34,212 nt of DNA from a virus, in the IMG/VR virus record IMGVR_UViG_3300044627_003119, positions 1 to 34,212 of that record; one strand, given 5' to 3'. Positions 1 through 11,170 of the stretch are shown piece by piece. The stretch's first letter is position 1; each line of letters begins with the position of its first letter. Both the position numbers and the translations under genes were made by a program. The notes under the pieces are model-generated. The model did not search any database and had not been told where the DNA came from. It was given only the letters and a program-made list of their open reading frames with translations.

Positions 1-1853
1 TTTGGAGTGATGACCCCCTGACGGGTCGTTGACTCGTAGTACGCATCTGCACCGAACGGGAATACATACAGCCAATTCGATCCCGATGTCGTGGTTGCGG
101 GTATGGCGAACATCCATCCATCTTCAGTCCATATGGTCATTGTTGCTTGAGGGAACAGACCATCGATTGCGCCCGAAGCGGTTGTGGTCAACTTCAATCT
201 GTTCAAGTTAGCACCGACCAACTTTTCAAACTGCGATCCATCCGTGACATACGGGGTCACATAGGTTCCAAATCGTCCACTTGTGGTTGTCACGAACAAT
301 CGGTCGAGTAATGTCGAATATTCAACCTGTGACATGGTTGTTGTAGCGGTATATGTGACACTACCGCCTGGTGGGACTTCAAGCATTGCGTCTTCCAACC
401 AGGTTATAGATCCACTGGTAAGATTGGCATATGGACAACGGTAAATTCTTGTGTTTGTTGTAAAGTAAAGACTTTTTATTCCAGATGCGGAACCATGATT
501 TACTGTAAATATTCTTCCAGAATTTACCTGTGATGGTGTTCCCGTGACCGCTTGTGTCGTTGTGGATAGCACATAGGCACTTGGACTCGTTCCTGCGGTA
601 ATGAACGAACCCATCGCACCAACAGTCAATGCCGCTCTGAGGTTGTACTTGGTTATTGAACAAGCGGTTGTATATGTTGACACCAAGTAGATGCTGTGGT
701 CTGTCTTGCTAACCTCATTGTCAAGAGCAAGAGTTGCCGACACATTCTTTGCATGAGAGTGTATGGTATGAGTTCCGCTCTGAGAACCAGAGGTATTGAT
801 CGCAGTTCCGTTGAGAGTGGTTGACAGGTTGAATGTATTCGCCTCTGCATTGATGACATAATACAGCGTTGCAGCAGTCGTCGGTGATGTCGTAAGTCCC
901 GTTGGCAAAGAACCTGTACTTGTCAAAACAACAACATCTCCATTCCTCAGTCCGTGACTATTGCAGGTAAAGACTCCTGGCGAAGCAATGGTGACTGTGA
1001 AGGTTTGGATTGGCGCAGAGTTTATCCTTGCGTCGGTCAACAGGTATGAAGCACGAATGTTATCAACAGTCGTTGCTTCTGTAATTGTGGTTCCGCCTTG
1101 AGAGAATGTGCTGTAGTTCAACCCCTTGATGAGATGAACGCCGCTATTCACAACGATAGCACCAGTACCCGACTGTGTGCAAGCAACCACAATTCGTATC
1201 TCTTCAATAACATATGAAGTGCCAGCAGACAGGGTGACGGGAGCATTGATCGTTAGGGTTGTGTTGTTTGTTATTCCTGTGATTTCATACCATGTGGTGA
1301 CTGCCGTGGGATCGGTTGTTCCAAATCCAATCCTTGCGCCAACAGCAATCCTCTCGTCCGTGAATCCCGTGCCTGATCCACCAATCGTGGCGGAAGATCC
1401 GCTAGTTGATACTGTTCCTGTAGTGTGCTCATAGACAACTGCTCGTAAAGAACGGACATTCTTGACTCCAGAAACGGTTGTTCCCGAAAGTGTAATAAAT
1501 CCTTTATATGTCAAAGTTTGAGTGTTAGAATTAAACTCGGTAAGAGCCAAAGTTCTCGTGGCAGCAGCAGTTGCATTTGATGCGGTAAATACCCAATAAA
1601 TATTATCTGACCACTTATATACAGATGGCATAAACTGCGAACCCGAAGAAAACACTTCAGGAATGTTCACAATGGCTGATGGCTTTGAAGAAATATAGTT
1701 GTCTTCTGTGTTTGCTCCCGTGGCTTGGCGAATGAGCGAGGAAAGCATGGTCTTGGTGGAATCATAACCACCCGCAGTTATACCAACGGCAGGAATTCCT
1801 CCTGTAAATCCAACAGTTTGTCCTACGAAATGGTGATCTACTGCTGCTTTCAC
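1..1853 (-). CDS. Tail fibre-like structural protein, partial at its 3' end
   Basis: The frame is open for 617 codons from a GTG at 1853 to the window edge, so the C-terminus is missing. The start is supported by an AGGAG ribosome site six bases upstream and by a GTGA overlap with the stop of the collagen-like fibre gene, which implies translational coupling. The protein is rich in Thr, Ser, Gly and Ala and has no visible transmembrane segment or signal peptide. Near the middle is a module with '[11 protein letters not shown]', then 'SLPTGLTT', 'LYYVI' and 'NTFNLS', which I recognise as a recurrent beta-rich module in phage structural proteins. The last visible part (Trp, Tyr and Phe spaced in short strands) looks like a beta-propeller or receptor-binding region, but this is a guess. 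GC content is clearly higher than in the rest of the window. It is probably a virion surface or tail fibre protein; the exact role is unknown. Confidence 0.7.
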
Positions 1854-2893
1854 GATGTTCTCCTGATCTTTATAAACAATCCAACACTCTGCACACCCGT
1901 ATTACTATTTATTACAAAATCAATTATATCTCCTGCCGATAAACCACTCCATGCGGTGATTCCAGTATTGGAGTCCTTCATTGCTCCACTGAATCCTGGA
2001 TAATCTGAACCGACTATTGATGTTGTAGATGGGTAGTTAGCAAATGATGATTTCTTGATATCAAACTCAATACTGCCAGTTTGTCCTGAAATTACATACC
2101 ATTCAATTGCCTCGCAGTTATATGCAATCTGCTTATAACCTTTGTTCCCTGTTGTGATGTCATCTGGAGTTGCATCAATGAATAGAGTTATGTTGTCTTC
2201 GGTTGGACCTGTAGCACCCGTAGCACCTGTGACACCTTGAATGCCTTGAGATCCTGTAGCACCCGTGACACCTTGAATGCCTTGAGATCCTGTAGCACCC
2301 GTAGCACCTGTGACACCCTGAATACCCTGAGATCCTGTTGGACCTGTTGGACCCTGAGATCCTGTTGGACCTGGTGGACCATGAATACCCTGAGATCCTG
2401 TTGGACCCTGAATACCCTGAGATCCTGTTGGACCTGTTGGACCCTGAATACCCTGAGATCCTGTTGGACCCTGAATACCCTGAGATCCTGTTGGACCTGT
2501 TGGACCCTGAATACCCTGAGATCCTGTTGGACCCTGAATACCCTGAGATCCTGTTGGACCCTGAATACCTTGAGATCCTGTTGGACCTGTTGGACCAGTA
2601 GCACCATTATTTGCAGGAAGAAAGAAATTTGTGTTATCTTCTACTTTCCATTTATTTTCAGATGTTCTATAGATTAATATCCTACCATCAAGATAATCTG
2701 TTTCTGGATCAATAGAAACATCTAATAATTCATATAAATTAGAAGCACCAGTTGGACCAGTAGCACCTCTTGAACCTTGTTCACCAGTTGGACCTTGTAT
2801 TCCTTGTGGTCCAGATAATGCTACTCCAGGTGCTATTGCTGTAATAGTTCTTGCTTGACCTTGTTGTGTTATGGTTATAGATGTATCCGACAT
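1850..2893 (-). CDS. Collagen-like tail fibre protein
   Basis: This 347-residue protein starts at the ATG at 2893; a TTG three bases upstream is less likely. Residues 1-50 form a short head containing '[13 protein letters not shown]'. A small globular part follows ('[19 protein letters not shown]', a motif common in phage fibre proteins). Residues of about 97-230 are an uninterrupted run of G-X-Y triplets, mainly GPTGSQGIQ, that should form a collagen-like triple helix. The C-terminal 115 residues ('TTGNKGY', '[10 protein letters not shown]', '[12 protein letters not shown]') match a common globular tip domain of phage tail proteins with a buried strand pattern. The architecture (anchor, trimeric shaft, tip) fits a trimeric tail fibre. 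The gene overlaps the next one by four bases. No late promoter box is obvious directly upstream, so it is probably transcribed from the 3811 box with the small genes before it. Confidence 0.8.
2203..2604. repeat. Tandem repeats coding for G-X-Y collagen-like triplets
   Basis: The plus strand shows repeated 18 and 27 base units such as 'CCTGAGATCCTGTTGGACC' and 'CCTGAATACCCTGAGATCC', near identical at the DNA level and in register with the GPTGSQGIQ coding unit of the minus-strand fibre gene. Copies toward the 3' end of the gene (2203-2320) have diverged to GVTGATG units. Such arrays change length by slippage or recombination. Nearly the same units occur at 6661-6843. Confidence 0.85.
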
Positions 2894-2912
2894 CAATAAA
2901 GTCCGCCGTCAA

Positions 2913-3160
2913 TTATCTCGTAATTTCTCTTGATATTTCAAAACTACCTTCAATGAGTCTTTGAACCTCTCCAAGACTATTTGTCAATTCCAGATCATAA
3001 AAATGCTTTCCATATGGTGTATTTTTCATAGTTGTCGCATCAGCACGAATAAAAATACCACCAGTATATCCAGTTCCACCAGAATATTTGTAGTGTAAAT
3101 GCAGTTTAAAAGTAGATCCTTGTTCTGTGTATATGTCATATCTTGATGCTGGTATAGCAT
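2913..3160 (-). pseudogene. Small phage tail-associated protein, probable one-base deletion after the start codon
   Basis: The minus strand is open in one frame from about 3206 down to a TAA at 2913-2915, but the frame has no ATG, GTG or TTG near its beginning. A good start (AAAGGA, two bases, ATG at 3160) lies one base out of frame. Adding one base after that ATG would give Met-X-'IPASRYDIYTEQGSTFK', then 'GGIFIRADATTM', ending in 'LIEGSFEISREITR'. This matches a small phage protein family I recognise by its pattern: PA.kYdi..eqGstF at the front, a beta strand with t.R in the middle, and RL..G...is.e.TR at the end. It is probably about 82 residues and complete apart from the shift. Either the base is missing from the assembly, or the phage gene is truly broken. 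An ATT codon at 3191 is a less likely start. Confidence 0.6.
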
Positions 3161-3166
3161 TTTCCT

Positions 3167-3475
3167 TTAAATATCTGTTGCTGTCGAAAATTCTCCACCA
3201 CTGATACCTTTAATATACAAGTAAGAATTTTTAACTTGATTGATATCTTGTGGATCGATTGCAGAAGGAATAAAATAAGTATTGAAATCTTCTGTCGTCA
3301 CTGAAAATGTACGAGAATCTAGTTTGGTCTTTCCAGACTCACGCGCTTGTTGTGAGACATATCCATAGAGAACTATTTCTCCTCGTAAAATATCATAGTT
3401 TAAACTTGTACGAACAACTCGCCAATATTGCGAGTATGAACCTGTCTCATGTTGAATTATCTGCTGTAATGCCAT
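3167..3475 (-). CDS. Small tail-associated hypothetical protein
   Basis: This 102-residue protein starts at an ATG that overlaps the TAA of the preceding gene by one base (TAATG), with GGAG eight bases upstream. Features visible are an N-terminal stretch 'ETGSYSQYWRVVRTSLNY', a beta-rich centre with 'LYGYVSQQARESGKTKL', and the end 'GGEFSTATDI'. The overall pattern (short, soluble, beta-rich, lying between fibre genes) matches small proteins often found beside phage fibre genes, whose function I do not know. It belongs to the run of closely spaced genes 3795 to 1, so it is probably a virion or baseplate-associated component. Confidence 0.65.
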   Translation of the reverse strand: MALQQIIQHETGSYSQYWRVVRTSLNYDILRGEIVLYGYVSQQARESGKTKLDSRTFSVTTEDFNTYFIPSAIDPQDINQVKNSYLYIKGISGGEFSTATDI

Positions 3476-3795
3476 TAGGTTGACTCCAATACTGATACAA
3501 TTATATCAAGACCAGCAGTTGCTCCTGCTGTTGCCTTGAGTGTATCTCCTGTTATTAACGGAATAGGTGTGTCTAGTGCTTGATATGTTGACTGAATCGG
3601 AACTGCTGCTGCACGAACAATGTAGTATCCTGTTGCTCCCTTGAACAACTGAATGGAAACAGAGTTTGCTGTGCTAGTGCTTGTGTTTGCAACATGGATG
3701 CCATTGATAATGGCAGTACCTGTGATGCCAGCATAGATTGTGCTTGCACCAGTGGTTCCGATTGATGTTGCGTAGTTGAGGTATATGTCGGGCAT
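3475..3795 (-). CDS. Small structural hypothetical protein
   Basis: This protein has 106 residues and starts at the ATG at 3795. A purine-rich GAGATAA lies just upstream and a TATAAATA late promoter box at 3811-3818. It is rich in Thr, Ala, Gly and Ile without charged clusters. The pattern 'IYLNYATSIGTTGASTIYAG', then 'VANTSTSTANSVSIQLF' and 'PLITGDTLKATAGATAGLDI' is typical of small beta-sandwich virion proteins of phages, in which a central 'NTS....vsv.l' strand is followed by a 'D.i.a.a....' strand. No enzymatic motif is present. It is the first gene of a late unit that continues through the two fibre-type genes to the left edge. The role is unknown; a tail or head decoration protein is most likely. 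Confidence 0.65.
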   Translation of the reverse strand: MPDIYLNYATSIGTTGASTIYAGITGTAIINGIHVANTSTSTANSVSIQLFKGATGYYIVRAAAVPIQSTYQALDTPIPLITGDTLKATAGATAGLDIIVSVLEST

Positions 3796-3810
3796 GAATT
3801 TATCTCTTTA

Positions 3811-3818
3811 TATTTATA
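3811..3818 (-). promoter_or_regulatory. T4-type late promoter box
   Basis: TATAAATA reads on the minus strand 15 bases before the ATG at 3795. It overlaps the TAA stop of the upstream lectin gene (GTA-TAA-ATA). The spacing leaves room for the ribosome site GAGATAA in the leader. gp55, the late sigma factor that recognises such boxes in T4, is encoded in this window. Confidence 0.6.
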
Positions 3819-4878
3819 CTGTTGGTGCGGAGGATTTGTACGGGTGATCTACTGGAAGATTTGCTTGCAGTCCCCATTTGTGTGCAAGGTATCCTTCGAT
3901 TTTTTGTCTTGTAGTGGTATCTGTGGTTTCCACCATAATTAATTCCCCCATTACACCATGCATTCGTCTTGAGGTGTTGTACTGCCCACCAATAGAATAT
4001 CCAATATTAGTAGCATCGGGTGTTACAATATTGTTTGTTGTGCCTTCCAAAGTTCCATTTCTCCATACGCCCCATCCCGTGGTATTGCTTTGAAATGACA
4101 TTACATTTCCTGTACTATTTGAATATGCTATTCCTGCTGACAGATCATAACTGACGGTTGTAGGTCCTTGGAAGAAAGGATAAGATGCACCAAAATCATT
4201 AGCAATTTTTATATAGTGCAATGCACCTCGGTCAGTTCCAGTTCCCGCAGATGCTCTTCCACCAATAATTGTTCTATAACCATCAGCACCACTTCCTGCA
4301 CCACTTCTTGAAAAAACCCAATACACGCCGTGTGTTTGGTTTCTCATGGCTATAGTAGAAATATCCATTATGTCATCTACACCATCAAATAAAACTCCTG
4401 GCAACGAACCAGGAAAAGCGGTTGCAGAGTATGATGGTTGAAGTGTTGTAGTTGCTTGGGTTGCGTTTACTGAATTTCCACTTTTATCTGCCCATGTTGC
4501 AACACCTGTTGCAATAGTGATTGTACTAGAGTCTGCTGCATCTAACCAAAAGACAGTAGAAATGTTTGCGGGTGTCCATTCAGTACCAGGAATAACAACA
4601 GTATTAATAAACTCATTTAAATCTCTCTCCATGTAATGCTTCAGACTAGGAATGGTTCCTGCCTTTGTACGGCGTTGATCTGTTGTTCCATTGTAACCAG
4701 AGTTTAATCCGAATCCTCGTTTAGGAATTAGAAGATTCTGCTTTGCCCAGATATTACTTTTTTGTACTCCTGTTTCTTGACGCACACCAACCCATGAAGA
4801 ACCATCCCATGCCCACACCTTTCCTTCGTAGGTGTATTCTTGGTTTACTGATGGAGATGGTGGAAATTGTATTGGCAT
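3814..4878 (-). CDS. LamG-like lectin-domain tail fibre protein
   Basis: This protein has 354 residues. Residues 1-35 ('MPIQFPPSPSVNQEYTYEG', then W-W-D-G-S-S-W) are the short anchor seen at the N-terminus of many phage fibre proteins; the fibre gene at 5776 begins the same way. A linker with '[14 protein letters not shown]' and 'LKHYMERD' is shared almost unchanged with the neighbouring 4895 gene. From about residue 105 comes a concanavalin/LamG-like jelly-roll: 'VFWLDAADSSTIT', 'WADKSGNSVNATQ', 'LFDGVDDIMD', a central part unlike that of its neighbour, and the closing '[16 protein letters not shown]' and 'HPYKSSAP'. Such domains bind carbohydrate, which fits a receptor-binding role. A CGTAAATA box lies seven bases before the ATG and no ribosome site is visible. 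It is a partial duplicate of 4895-5791. Confidence 0.75.
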   Translation of the reverse strand: MPIQFPPSPSVNQEYTYEGKVWAWDGSSWVGVRQETGVQKSNIWAKQNLLIPKRGFGLNSGYNGTTDQRRTKAGTIPSLKHYMERDLNEFINTVVIPGTEWTPANISTVFWLDAADSSTITIATGVATWADKSGNSVNATQATTTLQPSYSATAFPGSLPGVLFDGVDDIMDISTIAMRNQTHGVYWVFSRSGAGSGADGYRTIIGGRASAGTGTDRGALHYIKIANDFGASYPFFQGPTTVSYDLSAGIAYSNSTGNVMSFQSNTTGWGVWRNGTLEGTTNNIVTPDATNIGYSIGGQYNTSRRMHGVMGELIMVETTDTTTRQKIEGYLAHKWGLQANLPVDHPYKSSAPTV

Positions 4879-4885
4879 TTGTTAG

Positions 4886-4893
4886 TATTTACG
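4886..4893 (-). promoter_or_regulatory. Candidate late promoter box, imperfect
   Basis: CGTAAATA on the minus strand lies seven bases before the ATG at 4878, in the 16-base gap after the TAA of the upstream gene. Six of the eight positions match TATAAATA. The spacing equals that of the exact box at 22756, which is the main reason to list it. Confidence 0.3.
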
Positions 4894-4894
4894 C

Positions 4895-5791
4895 TTATGG
4901 TGCGGAGGATTTGTACGGGTGATCATTGGGAAGATTTGCTTGTAATCCCCATTTGTGTGCAAGATATCCTTCGACTCGTTGTCTTTCAGGTGTATCCCAA
5001 GAATAATTTGATATAATGATTTCTGCCATCTTACCATTGTAGAATAGACCAGGATATTGACCCAAAATAAATGCTGCGCCTAATGAAGGAGTATCACCCA
5101 GACCACCATTATTTGTAAAACTAGTGTTGAGGGTTCCTCCTACATGGGCAGTTCCAGCACCCAATCCTGTCTTGATTAGCGTAAAGAAAGTTCCAGTATT
5201 AATTACGAAGAATGATCCTCCATTATATGTTCTGTAGTTGGATGTAGTATCTCCCCAATACAATCCTCCATCACTTTTGATTTCAACTAAGAATTTCCAA
5301 CTACCTTCTGGCACATAAAGCAAAACTTCTTGACCGCTGATTGTATCTGGCTTTACTGCCCATGCCATGCTATAAGTATTGTCTCCCGATAATTCTGAAT
5401 GTAATGGTGTTATTCCTCCACTTATCGTCATTGAATCGTTTAAACCATCCCAATCAATGAGTCCTAATGAGTTCATTCCATTAGAAATATATGTTGGTTG
5501 ATTTGCTGCATTCGCTTGTGTTGCGTGTCTTTCGTTTCCACTCTTGTCGTTCCATTGAGAAACAGTAGTTTCATTAAGGGTGATTGTGTTTATGTCTGCT
5601 GCGTCTAACCAACAAGCAATAGAAGTAAGATTGGCAGGCGTCCACCCAACAGCAACAGTATTAAAAAACAATCCCACATCTCTCTCCATGTAATGCTTCA
5701 ACATAGGAATGGTTCCCGCCTGAGTTCGGCGTTGATCTGTTGTTCCATTGTAACCAGAGTTTAATCGCCATCTTCTCATAGGAAGAACCAT
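4895..5791 (-). CDS. LamG-like lectin-domain protein, probably the distal half of a fibre
   Basis: This protein has 298 residues from the ATG at 5791. An alternative ATG at 5779 overlaps the stop of the upstream fibre gene as ATGA and would give 294 residues; an AGAGAGG sits directly before the first ATG. From '[15 protein letters not shown]' onward it parallels the 3814 gene: 'LKHYMERD', '[13 protein letters not shown]', '[14 protein letters not shown]', a 'WDGLNDSM' strand, a divergent middle, and the end '[16 protein letters not shown]' and 'HPYKSSAP'. It lacks the N-terminal anchor of its paralogue. That anchor is present on the gene immediately upstream, whose reading frame ends exactly here, so the two could be one split fibre. 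The jelly-roll fold and position suggest glycan binding at the tail tip. Confidence 0.75.
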
Positions 5792-6942
5792 CCTCTCTTG
5801 AAGTCTACGATATATTGAACTGCACCTGTTTGACCGTTGACGGAATTTACAATATTTGTTGGAGTTGCACCTGTTGCTCCCGTTGCTCCGCGTTCGGATG
5901 TCAAGGGAACTGCTATAAACTTCATAAACTCAACAGTAATATTCTTTGCGGCACTTTTGTTCTGCACAATAAAGAAGATACGATCATCCGTCTCAAGATC
6001 AACTATTGTCTGAATAGCACCCGCAACTGGTTTAGACGATGATGAACAGTCAACATAAATTTCTGATTCCGAGATTCTGTCAGCATCCGCACTCAGACCA
6101 CTAGCAGGATCTGTGTTCTTTCCGATGTAGAATCCACATGTGTTGTTGCTAACTTCGCTAAAAAAGTCGAAGGTTGCTATAGCATGGAATCTTCCACCAC
6201 TACCTGTATATTTTAACGAGTTAGTCGAGGGATCTTTGATAAAATTGTATAAGGCTCCCGTTTGCATAGTTCCCGAAACAACCTGACGCTGGTTGATTAC
6301 GGAAATTACTGTCTCGACAGCATTATTTTTCAAATACATCACACCGACATCGTTGTTACCAGCAACACCTGAACCTGCGGTACCTGTTGCACCTTGGGGA
6401 CCAGTGGCACCTGTAACACCTTGAGAACCTGTTGCACCAGTATTACCTTGAAAACCTGTTGCTCCTGTAGCACCAGTAGCACCACTTACTCCATTTGTTC
6501 CATTAGCACCTGTTGCTCCTTGAGGACCAAATGGTTCAACCCAATAGGAAGATGTTCCGTCTGTAATATAAACAAATATATTTCCGCTTGTGGTGTTGAA
6601 CCACATATCGCCGTATGTGGCTCCTGCGGGTGCTGTAGTTGATGAAGTAAAACTTATTGCACCTGATACACCTTGAGATCCTGTTGGACCCTGAATACCC
6701 TGAGATCCTGTTGGACCTGTTGGCCCCTGAATACCCTGAGATCCTGTTGGACCTGTTGGACCCTGAGATCCTGTTGGACCTGTTGGACCCTGAATACCTT
6801 GAGATCCAGTTGGACCAATTGGACCTATTGCTCCAGTTGGACCAACTAATCTCTGCCAAGCATATCCATTATATGTCCATGACACATTTTCAAATGAAAA
6901 TGTAGCACCAGTCATAGGATTTGCTGGAAAATTTAAAGGCAT
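5776..6942 (-). CDS. Collagen-like tail fibre protein with a C1q/TNF-like domain
   Basis: This protein has 388 residues. Residues 1-30 ('[18 protein letters not shown]', then W-Y-N-G-Y-W) are the common fibre anchor. Residues 34-94 are G-X-Y triplets (GPTGSQGIQ units). Residues of about 97-140 form a small module with '[14 protein letters not shown]' and '[10 protein letters not shown]', often placed between shaft segments. A second G-X-Y run (about 144-195, GATGATG) follows. Residues of about 225-355 contain '[19 protein letters not shown]', '[10 protein letters not shown]' and '[15 protein letters not shown]', the strand pattern of trimeric C1q/TNF-like phage domains. The C-terminus '[20 protein letters not shown]' stops abruptly at the junction with 4895-5791. 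An exact late box sits six bases upstream of the ATG and no ribosome site is visible. Confidence 0.78.
6661..6843. repeat. G-X-Y repeat block, DNA-level copy of the block at 2203-2604
   Basis: The plus strand carries the same units (for example 'CCTGAGATCCTGTTGGACC') as the fibre gene at 1850-2893, about 4 kb away and in the same orientation. They encode residues 34-94 of the 5776-6942 fibre. The identity extends to wobble positions over several units, which points to recent copying or exchange rather than only protein-level selection. Confidence 0.8.
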
Positions 6943-7333: not shown

Positions 7334-10300
7334 TTAAATTGTAGCCCCTGAACACCATAACAATGTATGTGGAGTCTGTGGAAGTAATAAATTGAATGTA
7401 AGTCCATGAATATATGTGTTATAGAATCCATTATGTTCATAATCACTACCTATAACACCAGAATTTAAAATATTTCTACCCTTTGGATTATAGAATTCAT
7501 TACTCAATATGGTTTCATTCAATGTTAACTTCTCGACCGACATATCCATCTGTTCAAAGACATTAGTATCAACTTCTTGTCTTATACTGAATGTTGGAAT
7601 ACCACGGATGGTTTCCATGTCAATAAAGTTATTATACCACAATCTAAATGTATTATATGCATATCTTCTATAATCATTTGCTGTTGAATTAATGAAGTTG
7701 TATCTAAAATAACCAGCATTTCCTGGGGTATTGTTTGTTATTATTGAATCTATCTTATGAATCTTATAGGCATCTGAGAATGTCCAACCAGCATAATTTA
7801 TTGAATTAATATTACTCCATTGTGATTGTGTAATACCAGTTGGAGCTGGTACAACAGAAATCATATTTTGAGTATCTGCAATATTTAATTTTGTTAAATA
7901 TTTGAAGAATATTAATTTATCATCGGTTGCACTTGGATTATAGTTTGGTATCAATGATCCAGATGCAGGAAGATCATTTGTGTAGAAGCCAATATTAGTG
8001 CCAGCAAAATAACCAAATACATTCTCTGCCTTCTTCCAATTTGAAATGATATATTCATCTGCCATTGCAGTGGCTCCAACAGCAATTGTTGGATTTGCAA
8101 CACAGTACCAAATATCATTTAAATCTATAGTTCCACGCACTGTCTCTGTATCCATCACTATTATGAGCAAATTGCCATTTCTAGTAATCGCTCTCATACC
8201 ATAGGAGGTAGTTAATAGATTAGTTTCACCATTATTTGGTAATATGCCAGCTGCACCAGCAACTCCATATTGATTACTAATAAAGGTAAGATTTAATTTA
8301 GTATTTGTCTGATTTAAAGTTTGCAGTGATGGAATATTTCTTAAATATTCAGCACTACTTACTACATTGTTGACATTAGTAAAATCTCTCTTACTTAAAA
8401 AGTTATAAATTGCATATCTGTCTTTATATTGATTGTCTGTTTCTTGTGTTTCGGTGATCAAATCATCACTCAAGAAAGGACCATTCTTTGCCTTGAATCT
8501 GCTAATTAAAGTGTACAATGATGAGAATGATGGATTAATGAAAATCTTATCATCGATAATTGCATCAATCTTAAACGGTGTCTGTGGAGTATTGAATATC
8601 TTACCGTAGCCAGAATAACTTATTCCACTTCCATTTACTACTGTATAATTTGTAATTGGTTCAGGAATAAATTCAAGTGTAATTCCATTTAAATCTAAAG
8701 CAGGCACTGTGTCGTTGATTCCAGCCAAATCATTCAAATTTATTGATCTTGGTAAGAATGTTGCGCCAGTAATTCCTAACATTTGAACAATTACGTTGCC
8801 ACCAACTATATTTGAAGAATCATATAATGAACCTAGATATGGTCCACCTAAAATTTTTCTACGTCTTATATATGATGGAATGGCTGTATTCCAATATAGA
8901 TCCTTGATATAATCAACCATATATTGTTCGTGAGTGATACCTAACCAATTATACATTGCTGCAAACTTCATGATATTTTCATCTGCAATATCATTGTAGT
9001 TATGTTGATTGTATATGGTTGTAAGATTCATATTGTATGTGTATCCTTGTAACCATGGATTTGCATAGAATCCCCACCCTGAGTAATTATTTTCAGCTGG
9101 ATAAATCTTAAATGTTGATTCACTTGTAGGAACAACATTATCATCGAAATCACGATCCAATATAAATGAAGCATATTGTAATTTTTGTAGGTTTGTGTTT
9201 GTTACTGTTTGTTCTGTTTCTTCATCACCAGCCTGAAGACTTCCTCTATCTACGAAAGTATTTTTTACATCTAGAATTTCATATGCTGTATTTCCAGCAC
9301 CAGGACCAGAAGTTATTTTTATCTTTGAACCAACTAATGTTTGTGATGTAAAGCCCCAGTAATCAGTAACATCATCTTCTGAATGAAAACCTTTCTTCAT
9401 CAAGTAGCCATTTGAATTCAACTTCAATGGTAATTCTGCTGGACCAGATTTATTTGATTTTGGTCCAAGTCCATTAAGTCTACCAACAAAGTCTCTATGA
9501 GCAACAATAACACCGAAATTACCTGAAACAATTTGACCAGTTAGTTCTAATGATGGAACACTATATGCAAATGCACAGGTTATACCTGTCAGCTTATATC
9601 CCCACCCCTCACCAGTTGCTCCTGATGCTACACTTGGATATGTTAAACCATGATATAGATCAATATCTGAATTAGTTAGTGTAGCATGAGTAAATCCTTG
9701 CTTATTTGTAACGGCTGAACCAAAAAGTTTGACTCTTTGGTTGTAATCTTGGGAAACAAGAGATTTTACATAAAAGTCGGAAGGAACTTGTATTTGTCCT
9801 ATAGCCCATCTTCCACCAGAAATACCAGGTATAGAAGCACCAGTTGTTTGGTGAATTTGTGTTGATTTTAACTTATCTAATAATTGTTTATTATTGTGCC
9901 ATTGTTTGATATCATTTCTATCATACACCCAACCTAAAAATGCTAATGATGGAACAAATATACCTTGATTATGACCACCGTTACCAGCAGCAGCACCACC
10001 AGCATTAATCATCCCCCAGCTATCTATACCATATTGTGTAAATTTATCTAAGGCTTTTTGTCTATTTGTCCTTGATACCCAAGGAACAAATATTGATTGT
10101 GCAGTCTGATCGATAATTTTACAGCTATAGCCGTGATAACCATATTTTGTTTCATTTGGTGTTGAGTTGTAAACATCATAAGCACCAACAGCACCTTGAC
10201 GATGGTGATGGGAATGATATGGCATAACTGAAGATTTCCAATAATTGGTGATCTTGTCATTCCAATTATTGAATTCTTGTTGAATACTTGTGCTATTCAA

Positions 10301-11170
10301 ATTTATATCTTCGCCATAAACATTTTTCTCAGGGATACTCAACAAGTAATCTTCTGTATTCTTCACCATATCTCTACGATAGAATATTGGTCTATCAGAG
10401 AATGAAGATCCATTCCACATTACAGGTGGTCTATAACAATCAGCATAGGTTGGACCTTTACCTTGTGGTATGGATGTTAAAATTCCATATTTTTCTATAC
10501 CTAAACGACTCATCCATGGATCAGTAAAAGCAACAAATCTAGCCACCCCCTGTGGCCTATTGCTTTGTTGCCAATTTGCATTGAAATTTGATTTTGTGGT
10601 AACAAGAACATCACCAGCAGACAAACCAACTGGGAATCGTAAAAATTCACTCATTGGGAATTTTGATTCATCTATATCCTTTATTACTGTCCATCCCTTA
10701 ATTAAATTAATATTATTGCTATATCTTTCATCATATGACCATTTTTGGATGGTAGTACCAATTGTTGCTAATGACCAATTTAATAATTCAATATGATACC
10801 ACGGAACTGGATTCTTCATGGAACCATTTACCCACATGGTAATACCAACATTATTTAATTGACCAGCCTCACTGGTGTAACCAGTTTTTAGAATTGGACA
10901 ATTTTCATAAACACCAGGTGTATTTTCATAAGATACACCAGTTACCATAACACCAGCGGCAGGAAGAATAATATATGGTTCTCCAGAAACAAATCTACCC
11001 CATGTCACAGGAGAACTAAAACTCCATTTAAAACCATTATAAGTCACTGGTACAGTAGCACTATTATATTGTGTTGGTGCTCCAACATTACTTAAATTAT
11101 ATGGATTTGCAGATGGAATATAAGTCTGTGGACTTTTTTGCTCTGAAATACTTCCAGGATTTTTTGACAT
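7334..11170 (-). CDS. Large structural protein, possibly with a glycan-degrading-like toroid
   Basis: At 1278 residues this is the largest protein in the window; it starts at the ATG at 11170 behind AAGGAAAAAC. No signal peptide or membrane segment is apparent. Residues 317-323 form a His-rich patch ('YHSHHHR'). Residues 379-415 read 'QYGIDSWGMINAGGAAAGNG' followed by G-H-N-Q-G and a hydrophobic helix. This resembles a motif (qYGID...G..W..nGGH..Gr...lfaGl) I recall from bacterial proteins of alpha/alpha-toroid type related to polysaccharide lyases and hydrolases. Another similar segment is near residue 710 ('NPWLQGYTYNM'). The flanks are rich in Asn, Tyr, Gly and Thr as in virion proteins. 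A tail-borne depolymerase or host-binding protein is possible, but catalysis is not shown. It lies between three small paralogues. Confidence 0.6.
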   Translation of the reverse strand: MSKNPGSISEQKSPQTYIPSANPYNLSNVGAPTQYNSATVPVTYNGFKWSFSSPVTWGRFVSGEPYIILPAAGVMVTGVSYENTPGVYENCPILKTGYTSEAGQLNNVGITMWVNGSMKNPVPWYHIELLNWSLATIGTTIQKWSYDERYSNNINLIKGWTVIKDIDESKFPMSEFLRFPVGLSAGDVLVTTKSNFNANWQQSNRPQGVARFVAFTDPWMSRLGIEKYGILTSIPQGKGPTYADCYRPPVMWNGSSFSDRPIFYRRDMVKNTEDYLLSIPEKNVYGEDINLNSTSIQQEFNNWNDKITNYWKSSVMPYHSHHHRQGAVGAYDVYNSTPNETKYGYHGYSCKIIDQTAQSIFVPWVSRTNRQKALDKFTQYGIDSWGMINAGGAAAGNGGHNQGIFVPSLAFLGWVYDRNDIKQWHNNKQLLDKLKSTQIHQTTGASIPGISGGRWAIGQIQVPSDFYVKSLVSQDYNQRVKLFGSAVTNKQGFTHATLTNSDIDLYHGLTYPSVASGATGEGWGYKLTGITCAFAYSVPSLELTGQIVSGNFGVIVAHRDFVGRLNGLGPKSNKSGPAELPLKLNSNGYLMKKGFHSEDDVTDYWGFTSQTLVGSKIKITSGPGAGNTAYEILDVKNTFVDRGSLQAGDEETEQTVTNTNLQKLQYASFILDRDFDDNVVPTSESTFKIYPAENNYSGWGFYANPWLQGYTYNMNLTTIYNQHNYNDIADENIMKFAAMYNWLGITHEQYMVDYIKDLYWNTAIPSYIRRRKILGGPYLGSLYDSSNIVGGNVIVQMLGITGATFLPRSINLNDLAGINDTVPALDLNGITLEFIPEPITNYTVVNGSGISYSGYGKIFNTPQTPFKIDAIIDDKIFINPSFSSLYTLISRFKAKNGPFLSDDLITETQETDNQYKDRYAIYNFLSKRDFTNVNNVVSSAEYLRNIPSLQTLNQTNTKLNLTFISNQYGVAGAAGILPNNGETNLLTTSYGMRAITRNGNLLIIVMDTETVRGTIDLNDIWYCVANPTIAVGATAMADEYIISNWKKAENVFGYFAGTNIGFYTNDLPASGSLIPNYNPSATDDKLIFFKYLTKLNIADTQNMISVVPAPTGITQSQWSNINSINYAGWTFSDAYKIHKIDSIITNNTPGNAGYFRYNFINSTANDYRRYAYNTFRLWYNNFIDMETIRGIPTFSIRQEVDTNVFEQMDMSVEKLTLNETILSNEFYNPKGRNILNSGVIGSDYEHNGFYNTYIHGLTFNLLLPQTPHTLLWCSGATI

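Follow-up and report, generated by a model that had tools for sequence, protein, structure and literature searches.

The locus and its hidden frame

The DNA analysed here, called the window, is the whole of the IMG/VR record IMGVR_UViG_3300044627_003119, a virus fragment of 34,212 bases. The right part of the window carries T4-type core genes, and the left part is a tail-fibre region. In a PHROG scan, the core genes were found to include those for the major head protein, the tail tube, the DNA helicase, the late sigma factor, SbcC/SbcD-like subunits, the sliding clamp, the clamp loader, and the translation repressor. In the fibre region, the minus strand is open without interruption over 98 codons (2913-3209), and the six-frame list has no ORF of at least 50 amino acids for this frame that starts with ATG, GTG, or TTG. 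A preliminary description of the window had proposed that a hidden small gene of a known phage family lies here. It pointed to the peptide pattern that begins with PA.RYDIY.EQGSTF, and to an AAAGGA (3168-3163) followed, after two bases, by an out-of-frame ATG (3160-3158). All of these elements are present as quoted. The features of the locus are listed in Table 1.

Table 1. Features of the window around the hidden PHROG_1084 frame.
Feature	Position	Strand	Basis
Collagen-like tail-fibre gene now downstream	1850-2893	minus	PHROG match, comparison with L156
3′-terminal relic of another gene, seven codons including the stop (IDGGLY-stop)	2893-2913	minus	Comparison with L156
PHROG_1084 gene remnant, 80 codons and TAA	2913-3155	minus	Translation, tblastn, PHROG match, alignment
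GGTGGAACTGG, one copy at the deletion joint	3070-3080	minus	Comparison with L001 (two copies)
ATA at the start-codon position of the family	3153-3155	minus	Alignment and 43 pattern relatives, all ATG
Out-of-frame ATG	3158-3160	minus	Lacking in L058 and L066 (ATATT and ATACT, against ATGCT in the window)
AAAGGA, Shine-Dalgarno-like	3163-3168	minus	Same in L058 and L066
Upstream gene, 102 amino acids, PHROG_5084 (unknown function)	3167-3475	minus	PHROG match; protein 100% identical in L073

Read from the ATA at 3155, the frame encodes 80 residues. A tblastn search of the viral collection gave 28 relatives of this protein, the best at E 3e-32, and its residues 30-80 gave a profile match to PHROG_1084 (E 7.1e-11; E 2.8e-18 for a full-length relative). 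Thus, the hidden gene is real, and the family assignment of the preliminary description holds. PHROG_1084 is annotated as phage proteins to which no function is assigned. A protein search of the annotated phage collection gave no match for the hidden-gene product, a single scan across bacterial and archaeal genomes gave no relative, Pfam had no family for it, and a sequence search of the PDB gave nothing convincing (best E 0.13). At the DNA level the annotated phage collection had no close relative either: for positions 1850-4900, the matches listed (20 of 38 records) were collagen-type fibre sequences. The TAA of the upstream PHROG_5084 gene (3169-3167) overlaps with the Shine-Dalgarno sequence of the hidden gene.

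Other ORFs of the window were also noted. Two fibre-type ORFs, 4895-5791 and 5776-6942, lie in different frames and share 16 bases (...KRGWFFL and MVLPMRRW...). L073 has the same overlap, which is therefore a natural feature rather than the product of a frameshift error. A 1278-residue protein encoded at 7334-11170 has no PHROG match at E 1e-6.

The start codon and the leader

The N-terminus of the family reads MPA[SG]RYDI, and its M aligns to the ATA at 3155-3153, not to the ATG at 3160, which had been described as lying exactly where the protein should begin. I searched with a degenerate pattern that covered the residues following the M and left the start codon free. It matched 43 stretches representing 31 distinct genes; ATG precedes the pattern in all of them, where the window has ATA. 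In a wider set of 80 loci, ATG is aligned to the first residue in 66. In 13 divergent loci the alignment begins further in or the N-terminus is a different one, and in each of these an in-frame ATG lies upstream; the remaining one, L006, is cut by the contig end, and its start was extrapolated. Neither the pattern, nor the leader comparison described below, nor the 80-locus comparison revealed a relative with ATA at the start position.

The 40-base leaders of L058 and L066 are identical to that of the window at 38 of 40 positions without any gap, and all have the same length and the same AAAGGA. They read AAAGGAAAATATT-ATG and AAAGGAAAATACT-ATG in L058 and L066, and AAAGGAAAATGCT-ATA in the window. 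The exact leader of the window had no match across the viral collection, where a leader pattern permitting ATG or ATA matched only L058 and L066, both with ATG. The AAAGGA lies seven bases from the ATA and two bases from the out-of-frame ATG. The equal lengths of the three leaders indicate that no base is missing from the window. They also show that the start codon of the family was lost through a substitution of ATG to ATA, and that the ATG at 3160 is a by-product of a separate substitution in the spacer.

The missing middle of the gene

The relatives encode some 142-146 residues, and in all 80 loci of the wider search the gene has 138-160 codons, against only 80 in the window. When aligned with a 142-residue relative, the window protein covers residues 1-29 and the part from about residue 92 onwards, and skips all that lies between. 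About 63 middle codons are absent while the reading frame is kept. This second lesion was overlooked in the preliminary description.

Comparison with L001 placed 11-base direct repeats (GGTGGAACTGG) at both ends of the gap; they are separated by 189 bases, and each is at codon phase 0. In the window a single copy remains, which is flanked on its left like the first L001 copy and on its right like the second. Deletions between short direct repeats typically leave one repeat with flanks of this kind. The 63 codons were thus lost via a deletion between the 11-base repeats, which remained in frame because the two copies share the same codon phase. L002 and L003, the nearest relatives, have the first copy but not the second, and the exact parent of the deletion is not among the relatives. 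A pattern for the deletion joint had no other match in the viral collection. The short form of 80 codons occurs in no relative found, and both lesions of the window are without counterpart in the viral collection.

Fold and probable role of the full-length protein

The structure of a full-length relative (P0003) was predicted as a beta sandwich (pLDDT 76, pTM 0.67), although only two of the five models were good. With the same relatives aligned, the 80-residue form of the window was predicted at pLDDT 54 and pTM 0.34. This form lacks five of the predicted strands, those that span residues 36-83 in the full-length model.

By itself, the Foldseek list for the full-length protein consists mostly of antibody and T-cell-receptor domains. 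After realignment, the P0003 model matched 8hqz_T of the DT57C baseplate (Z 10.8, 2.4 Å, 111 residues), 8zdo_a of the Douge baseplate (Z 10.7), and 7qg9_L of the T5 tail tip (Z 10.4, 2.5 Å, 112 residues), and the remaining PDB rows were clearly below these (Z at most 7.5). Since the T5 and DT57C matches stand out only after realignment, the fold should be called Ig-like first and p132-like second. Judging from length and entry title, 7qg9_L and 8hqz_T would be p132. As described in PMC10038345, the Ig-like T5 p132 forms a dodecameric collar that carries three grafted L-shaped fibres, its fold is related to that of BppU, and a fibreless T5 mutant is without p132. The PHROG_1084 relative shares the Ig-like fold with the T5 and DT57C collar proteins (Z 10.4-10.8), although the sequence identity is 16-17% and the phage studied here has T4-like core genes. 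A weak sequence link also exists between PHROG_1084 relatives and PHROG_3304 (L-shaped tail fiber protein assembly).

What lies next to the gene was then compared. In the close relatives L080-L119, the distance from the PHROG_1084 stop codon to the start of the next gene is -1 to +10 bases in 40 of 40 loci, and nearly all of these next genes encode collagen-like fibres with a similar N-terminal motif. From the p132-like fold of the model and the fibre gene directly downstream, the full-length PHROG_1084 protein (about 143 residues) is most probably an adaptor ring that anchors the fibre of the next gene, like T5 p132 or the N-terminal domain of BppU. The ring and its fibre contact have been seen in T5, whereas PHROG_1084 is known here from sequence and a model, and the window copy is broken. 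Also unlike in its relatives, the fibre gene that adjoins it is a different one.

Exchange of the downstream fibre gene

The N-terminus of the window fibre is 70% identical to that of the fibre in L156, which has no PHROG_1084 gene before it. The same is true of L157, whose fibre is of the L156 type. The change can be located at position 2914. The 45 bases up to this joint are identical to L003 at 43 positions and to L156 at only 12, and beyond it the window resembles L156, with 21 of the first 24 bases identical (counted by hand on the alignment). BLAST pieces shared with L156 span from 2577 to exactly 2914. The relic between the PHROG_1084 remnant and the fibre gene has its counterpart in L156, where a 408-amino-acid gene ends in IPIDGGIY and is followed by the fibre gene. 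The letters common to both sides of the joint are AATTGA and two of the next three, and the crossover is placed at these shared letters. The sequence thus shows that recombination at this short stretch, just 3′ of the adaptor stop codon, brought in another fibre gene.

L073 resembles the window on both sides of the gene; its upstream region shares 318 bases at 99.7% identity and its fibre tip is similar, and it has no PHROG_1084 gene in its 22.9 kb. The swapped-in fibre of the window retains a 10-residue motif which is found in several fibres downstream of PHROG_1084 genes. For this reason, I infer, rather than observe, that the pairing of adaptor and fibre was lost.

Further rearrangements were observed in this region. 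The window fibre (1850-2893) and the L073 fibre (3353-4255) have a common C-terminal tip and different N-termini, which suggests that tips are exchanged independently of attachment parts. Positions 1-1307 of the window are 97.9% identical to positions 1-1307 of L058. In L058 the segment precedes the PHROG_1084 gene, but in the window it follows the fibre gene, and the module order has therefore been shuffled. In L079, which is the contig of L058, the upstream PHROG_5084 gene is reduced to its last 17 codons (about 2068-2118) before an intact PHROG_1084 gene. This piece is 100% identical to that of the window and brings the Shine-Dalgarno sequence along. It is another relic of cassette exchange.

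Probable decay of a putative adaptor gene

Taken as a whole, this stretch of the window is likely to be a recently decayed copy of a PHROG_1084 fibre adaptor gene that was orphaned by a fibre swap. The fibre gene was exchanged through recombination just after the adaptor stop codon, and the adaptor may thereby have been deprived of its cognate fibre. Then, or simultaneously, it lost its start codon and 63 codons, in an order that the sequence does not fix. The shortened protein, if made at all, would depend on weak initiation at AUA and would probably be non-functional. Two independent lesions absent from the relatives, the lost core, and the changed downstream fibre speak for decay. Against it stand the 80-codon frame without a stop codon or frameshift, and the intact AAAGGA with its spacing. 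The retained fibre motif speaks against orphaning, since the swapped-in fibre may still pair with the adaptor.

Substitutions were counted for the nearest two relatives only (L040 and L045); end-aligned counts are unreliable for L032, L034, L036, L038, L048, L065, L067, and similar divergent genes, because their C-termini are out of register or cut. L045, the contig of L003 and the nearest relative, differs from the window by 8 synonymous and 2 non-synonymous changes over 79 codons, which are few in total. The synonymous share exceeds that of a neutral model (P 0.0003-0.002 for transition weights of 1-8). The decay must therefore be recent, unless selection on the gene continues. The excess reflects selection for most of the time since the split from L045 and is not proof of present selection.

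If the gene is still selected, it may be a functional trimmed gene, in which AUA initiation seven bases past AAAGGA yields the 80-residue protein at a low level, assisted by the upstream stop codon that overlaps with the Shine-Dalgarno sequence. The AAAGGA and its spacing are kept as in L058 and L066, the frame is intact, the N- and C-terminal parts are conserved, and the 8:2 ratio fits. AUA start codons are used by some bacterial genes; in work on Staphylococcus aureus (PMC13009471), reporter expression from AUA or AUU was about 10% of that from AUG and reached up to 30% at one AUA site, and the AUA start of citZ is lineage-specific. The window shares with infC, ccpN, and citZ of S. aureus an ATA in place of the usual start codon, preceded by a Shine-Dalgarno site. 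Their AUA use was shown via ribosome profiling or reporters (PMC13009471), whereas the ATA of the window is unique to one record. Since neither the ATA nor the short form occurs in any relative found, five predicted sandwich strands are deleted, and the short protein is predicted at low confidence, a functional trimmed gene is rather unlikely.

An artefact of sequencing or assembly is doubtful to the same degree. The start change, or the deletion and the joint, or all of these, would then have arisen when strains were merged during metagenome assembly. The record, a virus fragment of 34 kb, was considered here at the level of the assembled sequence, both lesions are unique to it, and a mosaic region is hard for assemblers. 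However, the 11-base repeat and the fewer letters at the swap joint would be short for merging by an assembler, and the leader differences are substitutions, not the indels typical of homopolymer errors. Of ten other genes of the window, nine match PHROG families, most of them nearly full-length; the tenth has no match.

On a further reading, which is improbable, the adaptor cut to 80 residues is still initiated at AUA at a low level and is matched to the new fibre with its short N-terminus, adaptor and fibre having been jointly remodelled within a single recombination-prone cassette.

The preliminary description was right about a hidden gene that has lost its start, and wrong about the mechanism: although an ATG behind AAAGGA does sit one base out of frame, the loss of one base directly after this ATG is very improbable, as it is contradicted by the ungapped match to leaders of the same length in L058 and L066, which lack an ATG lying just two bases from AAAGGA, as a start there would add residues unseen in close relatives that begin with MPA, and as a single missing base, said to explain everything, leaves the 63-codon in-frame gap and the foreign sequence after the stop codon unaccounted for.

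Two further candidates were rejected. The hidden frame extends to 3209 and so covers the last part of the upstream gene, as a frameshift from that gene might suggest, but in L058 the frame is likewise open over 18 extra codons (161 against 143), and this relative has its own ATG. Decay of a redundant paralogue was considered within the 34 kb record and in related records, where two matches each are two halves of one gene. A single gene is present in 13 of 14 related records and none in the other, indicating that extra PHROG_1084 copies are not usual.

Significance

The find is real but ordinary, probably a PHROG_1084 gene in recent decay within a mosaic fibre cassette, and an attractive reading as an indel error has been corrected. 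The locus provides a case of fibre-cassette exchange in T4-like phages that may strand and erode an adaptor gene. PHROG_1084, so far without an assigned function, gains a testable role as a probable p132/BppU-like fibre anchor.
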